Positions 9,068 through 19,499 of a stretch of 64,000 nucleotides of DNA are shown here, piece by piece (position 1 is the first letter of the stretch; each line of letters opens with the position of its first letter). Where the stretch lies: assembly GCF_940670685.1 (NCBI RefSeq), contig NZ_OW711693.1, positions 1,674,001 to 1,738,000 of the forward strand, read 5' to 3'. The translations under genes and the position numbers were made by a program. The stretch is from Anaeropeptidivorans aminofermentans (GTDB lineage Bacteria > Bacillota > Clostridia > Lachnospirales > UBA5962). The notes beneath the pieces are model-generated. The model was not told the DNA's origin. It did not search any database and worked only from the letters and a program-made list of their open reading frames with translations.

Positions 9068-9150
9068 GTAAAAAGGAATAGCCCTCATATTTATTCTGTA
9101 GGGGGCTATTCCTTGAGCTATATGCTTACAACTATATTATCTAATCCCTG

Positions 9151-9516
9151 CTAGTCCTTATCACCTTTCGGACATTTAGTCCAGTGGCAGTAGCATGAAC
9201 AGTGGTAGTGGTATTTATCATATTGGGGTTCGTGTTTATCGCATTGGGGTTTGTGTTTATCGCATTGGGGTTTGTGTTTATCGTATTGGGGTTCGTGTTT
9301 ATCGTATTGGGGTTTGTGTTTATCGCATTGGGGTTTGTGTTTATCGCATTGGGGTTTGTGTTTATCGTATTGGGGTTTATGTTTATCGTATTGGGGTTCG
9401 TGTTTATCGTATTGGGGTTTGTGTTTATCGCATTGGGGTTCGTGTTTATCGCATTGGGATTCACATTTGTCACAGTGGAAACATTTTTTCTTGCAGTTGA
9501 GGCCACACTCACTCAT
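9151..9516 (-). CDS. Cys/His-rich tandem heptapeptide-repeat protein
   Basis: A 121-residue protein on the minus strand. The N-terminal 21 residues carry six Cys. Residues 22-98 are 11 perfect-length heptads of pattern [C/Y]DKH[K/E]PQ, flanked by degenerate units CDKCESQ and YDKYHYH, and the C-terminal tail is again Cys/His-rich (CSCYCHW, then CPKGDKD). No signal peptide or membrane segment is visible. ATG 9516 is chosen because GAGGTG (9523-9528) sits six bases upstream; the GTG at 9525 is part of that ribosome site. Regular His and Cys spacing suggests metal binding or a cross-linked coat or surface role, which is inference. The clean site and translatable repeat argue for a real gene. I recognise no named family. 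Confidence 0.65.
   Translation of the reverse strand: MSECGLNCKKKCFHCDKCESQCDKHEPQCDKHKPQYDKHEPQYDKHKPQYDKHKPQCDKHKPQCDKHKPQYDKHEPQYDKHKPQCDKHKPQCDKHEPQYDKYHYHCSCYCHWTKCPKGDKD
9223..9453 (-). repeat. 21-bp tandem repeat, 11 copies
   Basis: Eleven uninterrupted 21-base units encode the heptads of the minus-strand protein. Variation is confined to a few third and first codon positions (Cys/Tyr by TGT/TAT-type change, Lys/Glu by AAA/GAA-type change). The array is likely to vary in copy number between strains by slippage or unequal recombination. Confidence 0.95.
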
Positions 9517-9857
9517 TTTTTTCACCTCTATCTTGTAAATTTATGCTGATATTTTTTTGTAGCATACTATAGGTTATGGACGAACTATGCGTAAGTTGTG
9601 TCCGATTTTAAATGTTTATCAAAGACTAAGGACTGATGCTATGCAACGATTAAAATATATAAATTCCCGCGGTTTTGAGATGAAGTTTCTATCTAACCCT
9701 TTTGTTTTCTGAAAATTATACGGCATAACCTCTAGTGTTGTCCGTTCACATTCGACTCTTGGAATCAACTATAACAAAACTATGCCAATGCCTAACTAAC
9801 AATTTAAGTTTTTATACTGTCTCATGATAGGCTATCTTAAGGGTCTCTTTTTTTATT
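9517..9857. other. Intergenic stretch, nothing recognised
   Basis: This 341-base stretch upstream of the heptad-repeat gene holds no convincing coding frame on either strand and no RNA gene that I can identify. It probably contains the promoter of the minus-strand gene, but no clear consensus is seen. Confidence 0.5.
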
Positions 9858-12155: not shown

Positions 12156-12310
12156 GGAAATGTATTCGTGAATTAAATCAGCCAAAGCCTAAGTTGACTC
12201 ATATTCTACCATAATTTAAGTTCAATATAAAATTATAGTTATTTATACATTCATATCGTAAATATAACAAAATTCGATATAATTAACGGCGGAAATGTAT
12301 TTATTCGTGA
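12156..12310. promoter_or_regulatory. Divergent control region with a repeated candidate site
   Basis: The 324-base gap between the permease and the lipoprotein gene carries two direct copies of a GGAAATGTATT..TTCGTGA motif, at 12156-12171 and 12291-12310 (the second with three to four extra bases inside). Their placement on both sides of an AT-rich core suggests operator sites for a shared regulator. A TATAAT at 12322-12327 could be the -10 for the plus-strand gene. No local regulator gene is obvious. Confidence 0.35.
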
Positions 12311-12366
12311 TTGTTTTACTGTATAATGATAGAGCAAAATATAACACACTAAAAAAGGAGAAACAT

Positions 12367-13428
12367 ATGAAAAAATTAATTAAAAGCACTATTTTACTTA
12401 TACTTGCGGCAAGTATGTTAACGGCTTGCAGCGGCGTAGCTCAAAAAAATGAACCGGTAGAAAAGCCGGCAGCGGGAGAAGAATCTAAAGAGCCTGAAAA
12501 GAAGGAAGAAGAGAAAGAACTTACAAAAATAAGGATTTCTGACCTTAGGAGCGAGTTCTGGCTTCCTGCTTACGTTGCCCAGCAATTAGGCTATTATGAA
12601 GAGGAAGGCCTTGAAGCAGAATTTGTTACATTTAAAGACGGCCCTGTTGCTTTTCAGAGTATGCATGCAGGAGAAATTGATTTTTGCATGTTATCTACAG
12701 AGCCGGTTTTAATTGGCTATGACAACGGATTAAAATCAAAGATATTATTTACAGTGTTAAAAAACAAGCCTTTTATGTTAATTTCCAACTCCGAAATAAC
12801 AGAAATTTCTCAGCTTAAAGGTACTAAAATTGCCGCAGGGACTCCCGGCTCCGGCCCTTATGCGTTCATAACCTCTATTCTTAAGAAAAACGGAATTGAC
12901 CCCTTAAAAGAGGTAGAGCTTATTAATATGGATTATAATGCTACTCTTGTTGCCCTTGAGAATAATCAGATTCAGGCTACATTTTTCGATTCAACAAGAA
13001 AAAATGACGAGGCCATAAAGAATGCAAATGTGCTTGTGGATACTACAGACGAAGCCACCCATAAAGAAATTTACGGTTCAACGCTTTATGAATCTTCCGT
13101 AGTTACGACAACTGAAAAAATAGCTTCTGAAGAGCCTGAAAAGGTTCAAAAGTTTACAAATGCCATAGCAAAAGCTTTTAAATGGCAGAACGAGCATACT
13201 GACGAGGAAATAGCAGAACTTATTGCGCCTTTATTTGAAGGCACGGATATGACTGCCATTATCCCTGTTACAAGGTCTTCTTTATCGAAAGATGGAATCA
13301 TTTCAGAGGAAGGATACAAAACCATCGTTGATTTCTGCATTGAAGAAGACATTATAAAAAATGATATTCCTTTTGAAAACATCATAGATAATTCCTTTAT
13401 TGAAAAGTCTTGGAAGGAAATTAATTAA
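12367..13428 (+). CDS. ABC transporter substrate-binding lipoprotein (NMT1/THI5-like)
   Basis: About 353 residues. A lipoprotein signal peptide is clear: basic MKKLIKS, a hydrophobic core, then the lipobox LTAC with Cys near residue 20, followed by a charged linker rich in Glu/Lys. The mature part matches the SsuA/ThiY/NMT1 group (SEFWLPAYVAQQLGYYEEEG, then FQSMHAGEIDFCM and GTPGSGPYAF). ATG 12367 is used because AAAAGGAG precedes it; the frame is open upstream from 12295 without a site. It binds the ligand outside the membrane for the divergently encoded permease and ATPase. Ligands of this family include sulfonates, nitrate and pyrimidine precursors. Confidence 0.9.
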   Translation: MKKLIKSTILLILAASMLTACSGVAQKNEPVEKPAAGEESKEPEKKEEEKELTKIRISDLRSEFWLPAYVAQQLGYYEEEGLEAEFVTFKDGPVAFQSMHAGEIDFCMLSTEPVLIGYDNGLKSKILFTVLKNKPFMLISNSEITEISQLKGTKIAAGTPGSGPYAFITSILKKNGIDPLKEVELINMDYNATLVALENNQIQATFFDSTRKNDEAIKNANVLVDTTDEATHKEIYGSTLYESSVVTTTEKIASEEPEKVQKFTNAIAKAFKWQNEHTDEEIAELIAPLFEGTDMTAIIPVTRSSLSKDGIISEEGYKTIVDFCIEEDIIKNDIPFENIIDNSFIEKSWKEIN

Positions 13429-13430
13429 AA

Positions 13431-13934
13431 ATGGAACGAAGCAAAAAAATAGCTATTCTTGCCCATTGCATTTTGAACTGCAATTCCAAGGTAGTGGGCC
13501 TTTCGGGATACAAATCAAGCATAAGGGAAATCATCAATAAATACATGAATGAAGACATTGCTATTATCCAGCTTCCCTGTCCGGAATTTACTTTTCTGGG
13601 GCTTAAAAGATGGGGAATGACAAAAGAACAGTATATGCATAATAAATACCGTAATCATTGCAGAGAACTTTTAATGCCTTATGTAGAGCAGATAAAAATG
13701 TATCTTGAAGAGGGTTATGAGATTATAGAATATATGGGAGTGGATCATTCTCCAAGCTGTGGGGTAAACTATTCCTGCAGAGGATATTTAGGCGGCGATG
13801 TGTGTAACGGCAGAAACAGCATAGAGACTGTTTCCGAAGAAATGGGTGTATTTACGGAAGAATTTAAAGCACTTCTGGATAAGGAAGGTATTTCCATTTC
13901 TTTTAAGGCTATCGATGAAAAAGAATATTATTAA
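13431..13934 (+). CDS. TudS-related putative desulfidase (DUF523-like)
   Basis: A 167-residue cytoplasmic protein. Cysteines occur in CILNCNSKV near the N-terminus, in LPCPEFTFLG and in DHSPSCGVNYS, the same ordered motifs as DUF523/TudS proteins, where three Cys hold a [4Fe-4S] cluster that removes sulfur from thiouracil-type compounds. It resembles the shorter group annotated as TudS-related putative desulfidases in Clostridia. It begins two bases after the stop of the substrate-binding protein gene, so the two are almost certainly co-transcribed, suggesting that the importer brings in a sulfur-containing ligand. That functional link is inference; the cluster and chemistry are not shown. 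Confidence 0.75.
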   Translation: MERSKKIAILAHCILNCNSKVVGLSGYKSSIREIINKYMNEDIAIIQLPCPEFTFLGLKRWGMTKEQYMHNKYRNHCRELLMPYVEQIKMYLEEGYEIIEYMGVDHSPSCGVNYSCRGYLGGDVCNGRNSIETVSEEMGVFTEEFKALLDKEGISISFKAIDEKEYY

Positions 13935-14006: not shown

Positions 14007-14702
14007 TTACAGTGTATAGTCTTCATTATATATTTTAGTATAAAGCTCTTTTTTGTAAACGGTTAAATGCTTTTCAAGTATATCTTGGGCCTTGGCAATA
14101 TCCTTATTTTCCAATGCGAAGATATATTCTATATGCTCTTTTGCCTTATCTTCGAGTTTTCCCAAAGTGCTGGTATTTTGGTTAAGCGCAATAATAAGCT
14201 GCATGAAAATATTATGAAGCATACGGGAACGCCTTGGGCTTTTTGCAATATCCCATAAATAAGTATGGAATTCTAAATCCAGCTTATTGAGAGTAAACAC
14301 ATCGGAAGAGTGATCTGTCTTTTCGGCATTTTTCAACATATTATCGGCAAGCTGTTTCATGTTTTCAATATGCTCTTCATTAATATAATTATTTACTATA
14401 GCAAGTCTTATAATATCCTTTTCAAGAGATATTCTGATATCGAATATTTCATCAACATCTTCTTTGGTGAACATGGATACCAAACCGCTTTTTCTCGGCT
14501 TATGCTCTATTATTCCAGCTGCTTGAAGCTCGCTCATAGCTTCCCGTATAGGGGCTCTGCTTATATTAAGCTCCGAAGATATAGCATATTCATTTATTTT
14601 ATCCCCTGCAACCATATTCCCAGATAATATTTTATCCTCAATATATCGGACAACGGCCTCAGAAAGACTCAATGTATAATTGGAAATGCCATTTTGACTC
14701 AA
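14007..14702 (-). CDS. GntR-family transcriptional regulator, FCD domain
   Basis: About 231 residues. The N-terminal winged helix shows ELNISRAPIREAMSELQAAG, the standard GntR recognition region, and the C-terminal helical part (IRLAIVNNYINEEHIENMKQ, LDLEFHTYLWDIAK) is an FCD ligand-binding domain. TTG 14702 is the likely start because GGAG lies about seven bases upstream; GTG 14711 overlaps that site. It is transcribed away from the BCCT/grd operon, whose promoter region holds a palindrome and repeats, so it probably controls that operon in response to an amine or acid ligand. That target is inference from orientation. Confidence 0.88.
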   Translation of the reverse strand: MSQNGISNYTLSLSEAVVRYIEDKILSGNMVAGDKINEYAISSELNISRAPIREAMSELQAAGIIEHKPRKSGLVSMFTKEDVDEIFDIRISLEKDIIRLAIVNNYINEEHIENMKQLADNMLKNAEKTDHSSDVFTLNKLDLEFHTYLWDIAKSPRRSRMLHNIFMQLIIALNQNTSTLGKLEDKAKEHIEYIFALENKDIAKAQDILEKHLTVYKKELYTKIYNEDYTL

Positions 14703-15032
14703 ATTTATCACTCCTTGTTGTTAGCTCTTTAATGTTACTTCATCACAAGTAAATTTTCAATAGCTTATTCTTAAAACCTACGTTTACTTTCAGGGGTATT
14801 ATAAATAAATGGCGATTAAATAAATAATAAAAGCGTTTGAACAGGACAGCAATTTGAAACGGTAAAATTATAGTTAAAAATATCCCTTGGTAAAAATAAA
14901 TAAAAGTCATTATTTTAGAGCATATTGAAAAGAGCCGTTTTTAGAGATACTTTCTAAATTAAATGCCGATTTAACATAAAAATTATATTTTTAGGACATT
15001 TATAAATAAAAAATTAACAAAATATTTTATTT
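14703..15032. other. Intergenic stretch, no gene seen
   Basis: About 330 bases of AT-rich DNA between the regulator and the BCCT promoter. No reading frame, RNA gene or clear terminator is evident; the regulator promoter should lie here. Confidence 0.5.
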
Positions 15033-15329: not shown

Positions 15330-16811
15330 ATGGATAGTTCTAAGAAGAATAAAGGAAATGAAGTCTTTTTCATTTCTCTGGTTATTGTGCTTGCCATTTC
15401 TCTAATGGGCATAATTTCTCCGGAAAACCTTGGGGGAATAGCCGACTTTCTTTTTGCACAAATAACCGAAAAATTTGGATGGTACTATTTGGTGGTAATG
15501 TTTTTTTTCGTGGCATTTATGCTTTTTGTTGCTTTTAGCAAATATGGAAGCATAAGGCTAGGAAAAGATACGGACCGGCCGGAGTACAGCTATGGATCAT
15601 GGTTTGCAATGCTTTTTTCCGCAGGAATGGGTATAGGTATCGTTTTCTGGGGAATAGCGGAGCCGCTTAACCATTATATAAACCCTGACGGTATTGCAGG
15701 CGCAACACCAGAAGCAGCAAATTTCAGTATATTTTCCTCGTTTTTCCACTGGGGGATACACCCTTGGGCAAATTATTGTATAGTTGCGCTGCCTTTAGCC
15801 TATATGCAGTTCAGAAAAGATAAGCCCGGCTTAATAAGCAGTATTTTTATACCGCTGGTAGGAGAAGAAAAAATCAAGGGGCCTATAGGAAAGACCATTG
15901 ACATCTTTGCCATATTTGCTACTGTGGCAGGGGTAGCGACATCTCTTGGCCTTGGCGTTATGCAGATAAACAGTGGCTTGAATTTTCTTTTCGGGATACC
16001 TCAGAACATGTTTGTTCAGACCGTAATAGTTATTATTGTATCAGTGATATTCATCTGGACAGCCATAGCCGGAATTGACAAAGGGATTAAGTTTTTATCG
16101 AATATGAATATTGCTTTATGCTTTTTCTTAGTATTGGTTGTCTTTATCTTAGGACCGACCATACCTATTCTTAATTCATTTGTAAATGGATTAGGCCAGT
16201 ATATATCAGGCTTTGTATCTGAAAGCTTGAGAATTAGTTCTACCGGTGACAATACATGGATAAATAAATGGAGAATTTTCTACTGGGCTTGGTGGATTGC
16301 ATGGGCGCCTTTTGTTGGAATGTTTATAGCAAGAATATCTAAGGGAAGAACCATTAAGGAATTCATCTTAGGAGTTACAATTGTCCCTGCTTTAGGGTCA
16401 TGTTTATGGTTTGCAGTATTTGGTACAACTGGCATTAGCATGGGGCCGGAGATAGCGGAGGAAGCCATTAAAGTAACAGAAACAGCTTATTTTATAATTG
16501 TGCAGCATTTGCCTTTCGGTGGATTTTTATCTTTAATTACTGTTGCATTGCTTTGTACGTTTTTTATCACATCTGCCAACTCAGCTACTTTTGTATTAGG
16601 GATGATGGCAAGCAATGGGAATTTAAACCCAAGCAATTCCATGAAATTCCTATGGGGGGTTATTCAATCTATGATGGCTTTAGCCTTAATGTTTGCAGGC
16701 GGGCTTTCGGTGCTTCAAACAGGCTCTATCGTTGCATCGTTTCCTTTAGCTATAATTATGGTATTTGCATGCTTTTCACTGATTAAGGCGCTGAAAAGCG
16801 AGAAAATATAA
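15330..16811 (+). CDS. BCCT-family betaine/carnitine/choline transporter
   Basis: A 493-residue polytopic membrane protein of the BCCT family (normally 12 membrane helices). Landmarks are GMGIGIVFWGIAEPLNHY, the segment FHWGIHPWANYCIVALPLAY and the tryptophan-rich WWIAWAPFVGMFIARIS that lines the ligand site. It imports quaternary or N-methylated amines, usually with Na+ or H+. AAAGGAGG precedes ATG 15330. The next two genes encode component B of betaine- or sarcosine-type reductase, so the transported compound is most likely glycine betaine or sarcosine used as a Stickland electron acceptor. Confidence 0.93.
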   Translation: MDSSKKNKGNEVFFISLVIVLAISLMGIISPENLGGIADFLFAQITEKFGWYYLVVMFFFVAFMLFVAFSKYGSIRLGKDTDRPEYSYGSWFAMLFSAGMGIGIVFWGIAEPLNHYINPDGIAGATPEAANFSIFSSFFHWGIHPWANYCIVALPLAYMQFRKDKPGLISSIFIPLVGEEKIKGPIGKTIDIFAIFATVAGVATSLGLGVMQINSGLNFLFGIPQNMFVQTVIVIIVSVIFIWTAIAGIDKGIKFLSNMNIALCFFLVLVVFILGPTIPILNSFVNGLGQYISGFVSESLRISSTGDNTWINKWRIFYWAWWIAWAPFVGMFIARISKGRTIKEFILGVTIVPALGSCLWFAVFGTTGISMGPEIAEEAIKVTETAYFIIVQHLPFGGFLSLITVALLCTFFITSANSATFVLGMMASNGNLNPSNSMKFLWGVIQSMMALALMFAGGLSVLQTGSIVASFPLAIIMVFACFSLIKALKSEKI

Positions 16812-16839: not shown

Positions 16840-18165
16840 ATGAAATTAACACTTGGCAATTTTTATGTCAAAGAAATTGTTTTTGGAGAAAAAACATCTT
16901 ACAATAACGGAATCCTCACTGTTAACAAAGAGGAAGCCCTTAACGTCGTAAAAGAAGACGAGCATATTACATTTGCTGACCTTCATATTGTAAAACCTGG
17001 AGACAGCGTAAGGCTCTGCCCTGTAAAGGAGGCTATAGAGCCAAGATACCGCGTAGGAGGCGGCCCAGTATTTCCTGGCGTTACAGGAGAGCTTTTACAA
17101 TGCGGCAACGGAACTACTTACGCCCTTAAAGATATGAGCATAATCGTTGTAGGAAAACATTACGGCGGTTTCCAAGACGGATTAATCGACATGAGCGGCG
17201 AAGGTGCTAAATATACTTATTATTCTCAGCTTAAAAATCTTGTTTTAGTTGCAGATTCAGACGAAGAATTTGAGCGTTTTGAACAGCAGAAGAAAAACAA
17301 AGCGTTAAGATGGGCAGGAATGAGACTTTCCGAATACATCGGCGCATGCCTTAAAGACTTAAAGCCGGAAGAGGAAGAAGTTTTCGAACTTGAACCCTTA
17401 ACAAAGAGGAGCAAGGAAGTAAATGGCCTTCCATCTGTAGCTCTTGTGTTACAGCCGCAGTCCCAGATGGAGGAAGACGGCTATAATGATTTAAATTATG
17501 GCTGGGATACGAACCATATGCTTCCTACATTTATGCATCCCAATGAAATTCTTGACGGCGCTTTAATATCCGGTTCTTTCATGCCTTGCTCTTCAAAATG
17601 GGCTACTTATGATATGCAGAACTTTCCTATGATCAGAAGACTTTATGAAGAACATGGAAAGACCATTAATTTTGCGGGTATTATCATGTCCAACCTTAAT
17701 GTTGCCCTTGAGCAAAAGGAAAGAGCTGCTCTTTTCGTAGCTCAGATAGCAAAATCCTTAGGCATCGATGCAGCAGTAGTTGCAGAAGAAGGCTACGGTA
17801 ACCCTGATGCAGACTTTATAGCATGTATCGTTGCCCTTGAGAATGCAGGGGTTAAGACGATAGGTCTTACAAACGAATGTACCGGTAGAGACGGCGCAAG
17901 CCAGCCTTTGGTTACTTTAGATGAAAAGGCAAACGCCATTGTTTCCTGTGGCGACGTATCCGACTTAATCGAGCTTCCTGCTATGGATTTAGTTTTAGGT
18001 GAGCTTGATGCCCTTTCGAGAGACGGAAATTCCGGCGGTTGGGATAATGATGAGAAGCTGGGGCCATCTGTACGCCCCGATGGTTCAATAATTATGGAGA
18101 ATAACGGCATGTTCTGCGGTGATCGAGTTGTTGGCTGGTCAACCAAGACAATGGTTGAATTTTAG
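16840..18165 (+). CDS. grdI: Betaine/sarcosine/glycine reductase component B, alpha/beta precursor
   Basis: A 441-residue GrdE/GrdG/GrdI-family proprotein. In this family a Cys near residue 240 or later becomes a pyruvoyl group on cleavage, forming the substrate-binding subunits; here an Asn-Glu-Cys-Thr-Gly motif (TNECTGRDGASQPLVTLDEK) is visible, and the C-terminal part with LGELDALSRDGNSGGWDN is typical. It starts with AAAGGAG before ATG 16840, 29 bases after the transporter. Absence of a grdA gene between it and the large subunit argues against the glycine operon order (grdE-A-B) and for the betaine (grdI-H) or sarcosine (grdG-F) pair. The betaine symbol is chosen because of the BCCT neighbour; substrate specificity is not proven. 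Confidence 0.85.
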   Translation: MKLTLGNFYVKEIVFGEKTSYNNGILTVNKEEALNVVKEDEHITFADLHIVKPGDSVRLCPVKEAIEPRYRVGGGPVFPGVTGELLQCGNGTTYALKDMSIIVVGKHYGGFQDGLIDMSGEGAKYTYYSQLKNLVLVADSDEEFERFEQQKKNKALRWAGMRLSEYIGACLKDLKPEEEEVFELEPLTKRSKEVNGLPSVALVLQPQSQMEEDGYNDLNYGWDTNHMLPTFMHPNEILDGALISGSFMPCSSKWATYDMQNFPMIRRLYEEHGKTINFAGIIMSNLNVALEQKERAALFVAQIAKSLGIDAAVVAEEGYGNPDADFIACIVALENAGVKTIGLTNECTGRDGASQPLVTLDEKANAIVSCGDVSDLIELPAMDLVLGELDALSRDGNSGGWDNDEKLGPSVRPDGSIIMENNGMFCGDRVVGWSTKTMVEF

Positions 18166-18176
18166 GAGGTGTACAG

Positions 18177-19499
18177 ATGAAAAAGGCTATTTTATATATA
18201 AATCAGTTTTTCGGTCAAATAGGCGGAGAAGATGTGGCGGATTATAAGCCCACAATTACAAATGAAACTGTAGGTCCGGCTCTTGCTTTTAAAGCCGCTT
18301 TAAAAGATGAAGTGGAAATTACCCATACGATTATCTGCGGAGATAACTTTATGGGAAGTAATACGGAAGAAGCCATCGAAACCATTTTAGGCTTTCTTTC
18401 AGATAAAGAGTTTGATATATTCTTTGCCGGTCCTGCGTTTTTAGCAGGAAGATACGGTGCAGCCTGCGGCCATATTGCAAAGGCCGTAAAAGAAAAATTC
18501 AATGTACCTGTAATTACTTCTATGAACGTTGAAAATCCCGGCGTTGAGATGTTCAGGAAGGAAATGTATATCTTTAAAGGCGGAAACAGCGCTGCCGCCA
18601 TGAGAAAAGATGTTCAAAATATGGCGAAATTCGCCCTTAAATTATTAAAGGGTGAAAAGCTTCTTTCAGCCAACGAAGAGGGCTATTTTGGCAGAGGTAT
18701 CAGGAGACAAATTTGGCTTGAGCCTCCTGTAAAGGCTACAGAAAGAGTTATTGATATGCTCCTCAAAAAAATCAATGGCGAGCCTTATCAAACAGAGCTT
18801 CCAATTGCTATGTCCGACAGGGTTGCTATAGCCCCTGCTATTTCACCAGAAGATTTAAGGAAAATGGAAGTTGCTCTTGTAACTACAGGCGGTATTGTTC
18901 CTGTTGGAAACCCTGATAGAATTCAATCTGCCTCTGCTACAAAATTCGGCAGGTATGATATTGCTGATCTTGACGATTTCAGAGTGGGCGAATACATGAC
19001 GATTCACGCAGGATACGACCCGGCAGCAGCTAATAATGACCCTGACGTATGCGTTCCTCTTGATGCTATGAGAAAATACGAAAAAGAGGGCAAAATCGGC
19101 GGTATATTCAAATATTTCTACACAACTGTAGGAACAGGAACCACCCAGGCAGAAGCTTCCAAAATGGGCAAGGCTATTGCTGAGGAACTTAATGCAAACG
19201 GAATAAAAGCTGTTATTATGACTTCCACCTGAGGTACCTGTACACGTTGCGGTGCAACGATGGTAAAAGAAATTGAAAAGACAGGTATTACAATTGTTCA
19301 GATGGCAAACCTTATCCCTGTTGCCAAAACTGTAGGCTCCAATAGAATTGTTCCAACCATCTCTATACCATATCCTCTTGGAGACCCTGCAACAACAGCA
19401 GAAGAGCAGTTTAAGCTCAGATACCATAGGGTAGGGGTTGCGTTAGACGCATTAACTACACCGATTACAGAGCAGACAGTTTTTAAAGTAAAATTTTAA
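18177..19499 (+). CDS. grdH: Betaine/sarcosine/glycine reductase component B, selenoprotein subunit
   Basis: A single 440-residue gene read through TGA at 19230-19232, which encodes selenocysteine at residue 352. The context is MTSTUGTCTRCGATMVKEI, the invariant active-site motif of GrdB/GrdF/GrdH. The frame on both sides of the TGA is the same and both halves match the family, so this is not two genes or a truncation. A hairpin suited to SelB recognition follows the codon. The subunit transfers the substrate carboxymethyl group to the GrdA selenoprotein, which, with components A and C and the sel genes, must be encoded elsewhere. AGGAGG precedes ATG 18177. It is the last gene before a terminator at 19554. 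Confidence 0.93.
19230..19259 (+). promoter_or_regulatory. UGA(Sec) codon and bacterial SECIS-like hairpin
   Basis: TGA occupies 19230-19232. Twelve bases later CGTTGC (19245-19250) pairs with GCAACG (19254-19259) around a GGT loop. An apical stem at about this distance with a G/U-bearing short loop is what SelB needs in bacteria. The hairpin also codes for CTRCGATM, so it is under double constraint. Confidence 0.8.

Follow-up and report, generated by a model that had tools for sequence, protein, structure and literature searches.

A probable betaine reductase selenoprotein gene, grdH, of Anaeropeptidivorans aminofermentans and its UGA recoding site

A known example of the betaine reductase GrdH is that of Eubacterium acidaminophilum, an enzyme whose purification was reportedly described in 1995. 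In the partner subunit of glycine reductase, GrdE, the cleavage site is an Asn-Cys pair; GrdE is reported (Bednarski 2001) to be cut at a Cys, giving rise to a pyruvoyl group. The biochemistry of the family, from substrate and reaction to the binding of SelB, is outlined in excerpts of PMC10838667, PMC6778437 and PMC13188914. The excerpt of PMC10838667 further describes a fluoroacetate reductase, FarB/FarE, which resembles the betaine system in belonging to the component B family, in carrying selenocysteine, and in having a partner that, like GrdI, is not a pro-protein; its FarB is reported to have no CxxC, whereas the GrdH described here retains it. According to an excerpt of PMC1794560, Cys homologues of GrdB are scarce or absent in organisms that contain selenocysteine.

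The gene described here lies in a 64,000-nucleotide stretch (the window; Table 1) of a 3.76-Mb genome assembled as a single contig. It shares with GrdH of the Eubacterium acidaminophilum type (NF040795) the full-length match above cut-off, the UxxCxxC motif, the SECIS element, a GrdI-type partner and a BCCT transporter; no difference of substance was found, and the gene, which in itself holds nothing novel, joins the GrdH family with a selenocysteine recoding site of the textbook kind. A single frame, with AGGAGG upstream of its ATG at 18177, runs through the TGA at 19230-19232 (codon 352) to the TAA at 19497-19499 and encodes 440 residues, as the preliminary description had read it. With TGA translated as U, the surroundings of the codon are MTSTUGTCTRCGATM, so that the in-frame UGA is followed by the remainder of the motif as U352-GTC-TRC. 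A mechanical list of open reading frames under table 11 cuts the gene into 351 aa (18177-19232) and 79 aa (19260-19499), the same two proteins that had been foreseen for naive gene calling.

Table 1. Features of the grdH locus and of two paralogues in the same genome (G000).
Feature	Position	Strand	Evidence or remark
GntR/FCD-type regulator, divergent	14007..14711	-	PF07729 + PF00392
BCCT transporter, probably glycine betaine	15330..16811	+	NF047988 653.3 bits (cut-off 650); PF02028
grdI, partner subunit of component B (Gly_reductase family), lacking the GrdE Asn-Cys site	16840..18165	+	PF09338 603 bits
grdH, probable selenoprotein subunit of betaine reductase component B (440 aa, U352)	18177..19499	+	TGA=U translation; NF040795; PF07355
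UGA, predicted selenocysteine 352	19230..19232	+	TGA at the equivalent site in homologues and paralogues
Bacterial SECIS element, Rfam RF01990 SECIS_4	19233..19270	+	65.1 bits, E 2.8e-13, gathering 38
Apical stem-loop of the SECIS	19245-19259	+	inside coding sequence
grdB-type selenoprotein gene with UGTS	L031:6551-7855		G000 about 3.27 Mb
grdB-type selenoprotein gene with UGTD	L033:8583-9887		G000 about 3.73 Mb

Judged from its sequence, the product is most likely the betaine reductase selenoprotein B, GrdH. The fused protein reaches 811.2 bits on NF040795 (betaine_GrdH; cut-off 775), its residues 3-440 covering positions 1-435 of 435 of the profile, which provides the full-length alignment through U352 that had been proposed as a check; it also reaches 529 bits on PF07355, and a search of PDB sequences returned no chain up to E 0.1. 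The preliminary description had assigned the gene to GrdB/F/H without distinction; the family stands, and the assignment narrows to GrdH, since the cut-offs of the GrdF model (NF040794, 565.3 bits against 800) and of the GrdB model (TIGR01917, 501.2 against 602.2) are missed and that of GrdH is passed. That the protein is instead GrdB or GrdF, acting on glycine or sarcosine, draws on the closeness of the family, in which it scores on both of these models and on TIGR01918 as well; this identity is nevertheless very improbable and was rejected, because neither cut-off is reached, because the partner encoded at this locus is a GrdI without Asn-Cys, and because other copies in the genome pass the GrdB model and one of their partners the GrdG model. 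L030 is a glycine GrdB by NCBIfam (740 bits, cut-off 602), and at L032 the model for sarcosine GrdG is passed by the partner (831 bits, cut-off 780); the B subunit of L032 passes the glycine model (620.5 against 602.2) and just misses sarcosine GrdF (776.5 against 800), its substrate type by NCBIfam being ambiguous. The genome's own glycine reductase GrdB (TIGR01917; L030:8447-9751) is 50.6% identical to the window's GrdH and shares the selenocysteine position and the SECIS element, but its partner is a GrdE with the Asn-Cys site.

In the window's GrdI, Ser-Phe aligns with N241-C242 of the GrdE from the same genome; Ser-Phe is also present in 79 of 80 GrdI relatives (from the homologous loci described below), the remaining one having Ser-Tyr. 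A GrdI-type partner without a pyruvoyl cleavage site is thus found next to grdH, and its Ser-Phe fits the statement, in the excerpt of PMC10838667, that the glycine-betaine GrdI is not a pro-protein. As betaine offers no amine for a Schiff base, this difference between GrdI and GrdE would make chemical sense. In NCBIfam the partner matches no GrdI model, its best match being GrdG at 351 bits against a cut-off of 780; the name grdI therefore rests on the Pfam family, the position, and the missing Asn-Cys. On the FarE model the same protein scores only 155 bits, against a cut-off of 675.

The operon neighborhood holds a transporter upstream of grdI; the divergent GntR/FCD-type regulator may, by its position, be linked to the operon. 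Farther upstream, a CD3072-family, TudS-related putative desulfidase (13431-13934) adjoins a gene for an SsuA-like solute-binding protein (12295-13428), and this pair is possibly an uptake cluster for sulfur or thio compounds. Elsewhere in the window, 9141-9549 is a low-complexity repeat with open reading frames of short units in several frames of both strands (KHKPQCD / NTNPNAI).

Reading the TGA as a true stop would make the gene either a pseudogene or the source of a shortened protein of 351 aa, and the open reading frame behind it a product of chance; it has on its side that a standard listing splits the gene there. Against it stands the comparison of homologous loci. The fused protein, a query that favors full-length relatives, matched 127 stretches in a scan of genome_contigs; 108 were confirmed and the best-scoring 80 kept, which do not represent 80 species, some contigs or genomes contributing two. 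In all of these best 80 of 108, TGA stands at the selenocysteine position and the frame continues for 78-91 residues (88 in most), the extremes being L055, with 78 at a contig end, and L082, with 91 after read-through of its own terminal TGA; the closest of the matches kept, L034, is from a Clostridiales metagenome-assembled genome (97% identity). A GrdI homologue accompanies all 80 of these grdH loci (best 80 of 108). In 79 of them the end of its best match lies 13-71 bases upstream of the GrdH match, and in L048 the distance is 1769 bases; a BCCT homologue occurs in 70 of the same 80 (again the best of 108), no match to it being found in the other 10, some of which are short.

An independent sample, taken from the order, gives the same picture. 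When 295 genomes of the order were searched with TIGR01918 (E <= 0.001; at most five candidates scored in genomes with more), 42 genomes matched, with at least 58 matches, and five of the six copies of the window's own genome were recovered. A single in-frame TGA is present in each of the 42 matches that span the selenocysteine position (480 bits or more; five of them from the own genome, and one, G113, without the first 37 positions). Of the remainder, two strong matches have no TGA and extend over only about positions 1-260; 14 more, of which 10 have TGA and 4 do not, are of short extent or low score, and most of these are, by their extent, probably D-proline-reductase-like. Thirty loci were retrieved from this sample, one being the own glycine-type copy, and all 30 have the motif with TGA. 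In a family sample of seven genomes, three match the GrdH model, of which the window's own passes the cut-off and none of the six others searched does. No homologue among those examined ends at the TGA, the outcome that would have spoken for a stop, and the general claim that these reductases always carry selenocysteine here holds among the loci examined (80 of 80 kept loci, 42 of 42 order matches that span the site).

Within the gene itself, 88 open codons follow the TGA, for which a simple independent-base estimate at the base composition of the window gives a chance of about 0.0015. By eye, no ribosome-binding site is seen before the ATG of the 79-aa frame, where the bases are those of the SECIS stem. 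Together with SECIS_4 above threshold at the site and the full selenocysteine machinery in the genome, the comparative data argue so strongly against a true stop or pseudogene that this reading was rejected as highly improbable. The segment 18177-19499 is thus confirmed as a single, ordinary bacterial selenoprotein gene, in which UGA is predicted to code for selenocysteine 352.

The SECIS_4 match begins directly after the UGA; at Rfam gathering thresholds the window has no other match. The 6-bp stem with a GGT loop that had been noticed past the codon is borne out as CGUUGC-GGU-GCAACG, starting 12 bases 3' of the UGA. Folding of the RNA after the UGA, also proposed at the outset, was the sole check not to come out favorably: the 43 nt from the UGA fold at -8.6 kcal/mol against a shuffle mean of -7.39 (z -0.54; 50 of 200 shuffles as good), a stability that is not significant; support for the hairpin is therefore taken from Rfam SECIS_4 and from the comparison across species. 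For the latter, codon choice was compared in 81 genes, the 80 kept loci plus the window, unweighted for relatedness. Arg at U+5 is encoded by CGT in all 80 genes that have Arg there (the remaining gene, L052, has its TGA but Leu at this position), against 13.2% of the 1364 Arg codons elsewhere in the same genes; Cys at U+6 is TGC in 79 of 81 (34.6% elsewhere in these genes), Ala at U+8 is GCA in 77 of 77 (41.1% elsewhere; four genes have Ser or Thr), and Thr at U+9 is ACG in 61 of 81 (9.3% elsewhere). TGT at U+6 is found only in L062 and L102, both of which have ACA at U+8, a compensatory change from C-G to U-A that restores the pair. All six stem pairs form in 58 of the 81 genes and five of six in the remaining 23; in 20 genes it is the outermost pair that is broken (ACA or ACC), and L060, L067 and L052 each have a single broken inner pair. 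The SECIS stem is thus constrained, with synonymous codons skewed towards pairing and a compensatory change in addition.

The genome also holds the machinery that the preliminary description had suggested looking for. The models for selB (374.2 bits, cut-off 242.25), selA (593, cut-off 267.9), selD (387.7, cut-off 125) and tRNA-Sec (65.8, cut-off 47) each find one match above their cut-offs; selD carries one in-frame TGA, as does the single grdA. In 14 well-known genomes searched as controls, the cut-offs were exceeded in 2 for selB, 1 for selA, 2 for selD and 5 for tRNA-Sec; none of the other three models is as unselective as that for the tRNA, and its position beside selA-selB therefore helps to support the tRNA call. 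A cluster at 927-937 kb contains selA, selB, tRNA-Sec, a glycine riboswitch, a GrdE-type gene, grdB and grdA, and in it grdC, grdD and trxB were also recognized, by eye and not by a model. That TGA is reassigned throughout the genome, for example to Trp, so that the residue is not selenocysteine, has nothing for it beyond the in-frame TGA itself and is of negligible probability, since six of 54 little-overlapping window frames of at least 150 aa (mechanical list) end in TGA, of which one is the 351-aa piece and the other five do stop there, since nine other scanned window proteins match families under table 11, and since selA, selB, selD and tRNA-Sec are present; it was rejected.

We regard it as nearly certain that the transporter-grdI-grdH cluster serves the reduction of glycine betaine, with the UGA at 19230 recoded as selenocysteine. 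The sequence shows the gene, the recoding site, the SECIS element, the selenocysteine machinery, the partner gene, the transporter, and grdA; glycine betaine is predicted as the substrate from homology and from the transporter, and substrate, reaction and SelB binding would follow the known biochemistry of the family. Component B, the substrate-specific part, would consist of GrdI and GrdH. For the ribosome to pass the UGA, selenocysteyl-tRNA would be delivered by SelB sitting on the SECIS hairpin that follows directly. Sec352 would then attack the methylene carbon of the substrate, with trimethylamine leaving, and the carboxymethyl group would pass to the shared GrdA and on to component C, yielding acetyl phosphate.

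Besides grdH, the genome has five further grdB-type genes, 39-51% identical to the window's GrdH and all with TGA at the equivalent place; SECIS_4 exceeds the gathering score in four, the fifth, L031, reaching 35.2 against 38. Three of them, L029, L031 and L033, pass no substrate-specific NCBIfam model, and in two of these the first cysteine of UxxCxxC is replaced, by Ser in L031 (UGTSTRCG) and by Asp in L033 (UGTDTRCG). Comparable cases are already published: one Synergistota strain has eight grdB genes according to the excerpt of PMC10838667, which also describes a FarB without CxxC, and the excerpt of PMC6778437 reports five clusters, two of unclear substrate, with one cluster that lacks UxxCxxC and is taken by its authors as a likely pseudogene. 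A bolder reading, which we hold to be less likely than not, is that two or more substrates still to be assigned may reach the single GrdA of this genome by way of component B variants in which selenocysteine is retained, with Ser (L031) or Asp (L033) for the first Cys and, in L029 and L031, partners without a pyruvoyl site.

As to their surroundings, L031 adjoins what looks by eye like an MFS-type transporter gene, and its neighboring partner lacks the pyruvoyl Cys; its layout is rather similar to that of the far operon, but the FarE score is 171 against a cut-off of 675. At L029 (7296-10009) the grdB-type gene precedes its partner, the partner coming first in the other five pairs of the genome; this partner has no Asn-Cys site, and nearby, judged by eye, are M20-like peptidases and a gene resembling amino-acid permeases.

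In annotation, selenocysteine or pyrrolysine codons split 28 gene pairs in one genome, according to the excerpt of PMC6778437. If recoding is left out of account, grdH appears as two fragments, and the capacity to convert betaine to trimethylamine may be missed or judged broken. For the biology of the family, the gene adds one probable betaine reductase to a well-described group.
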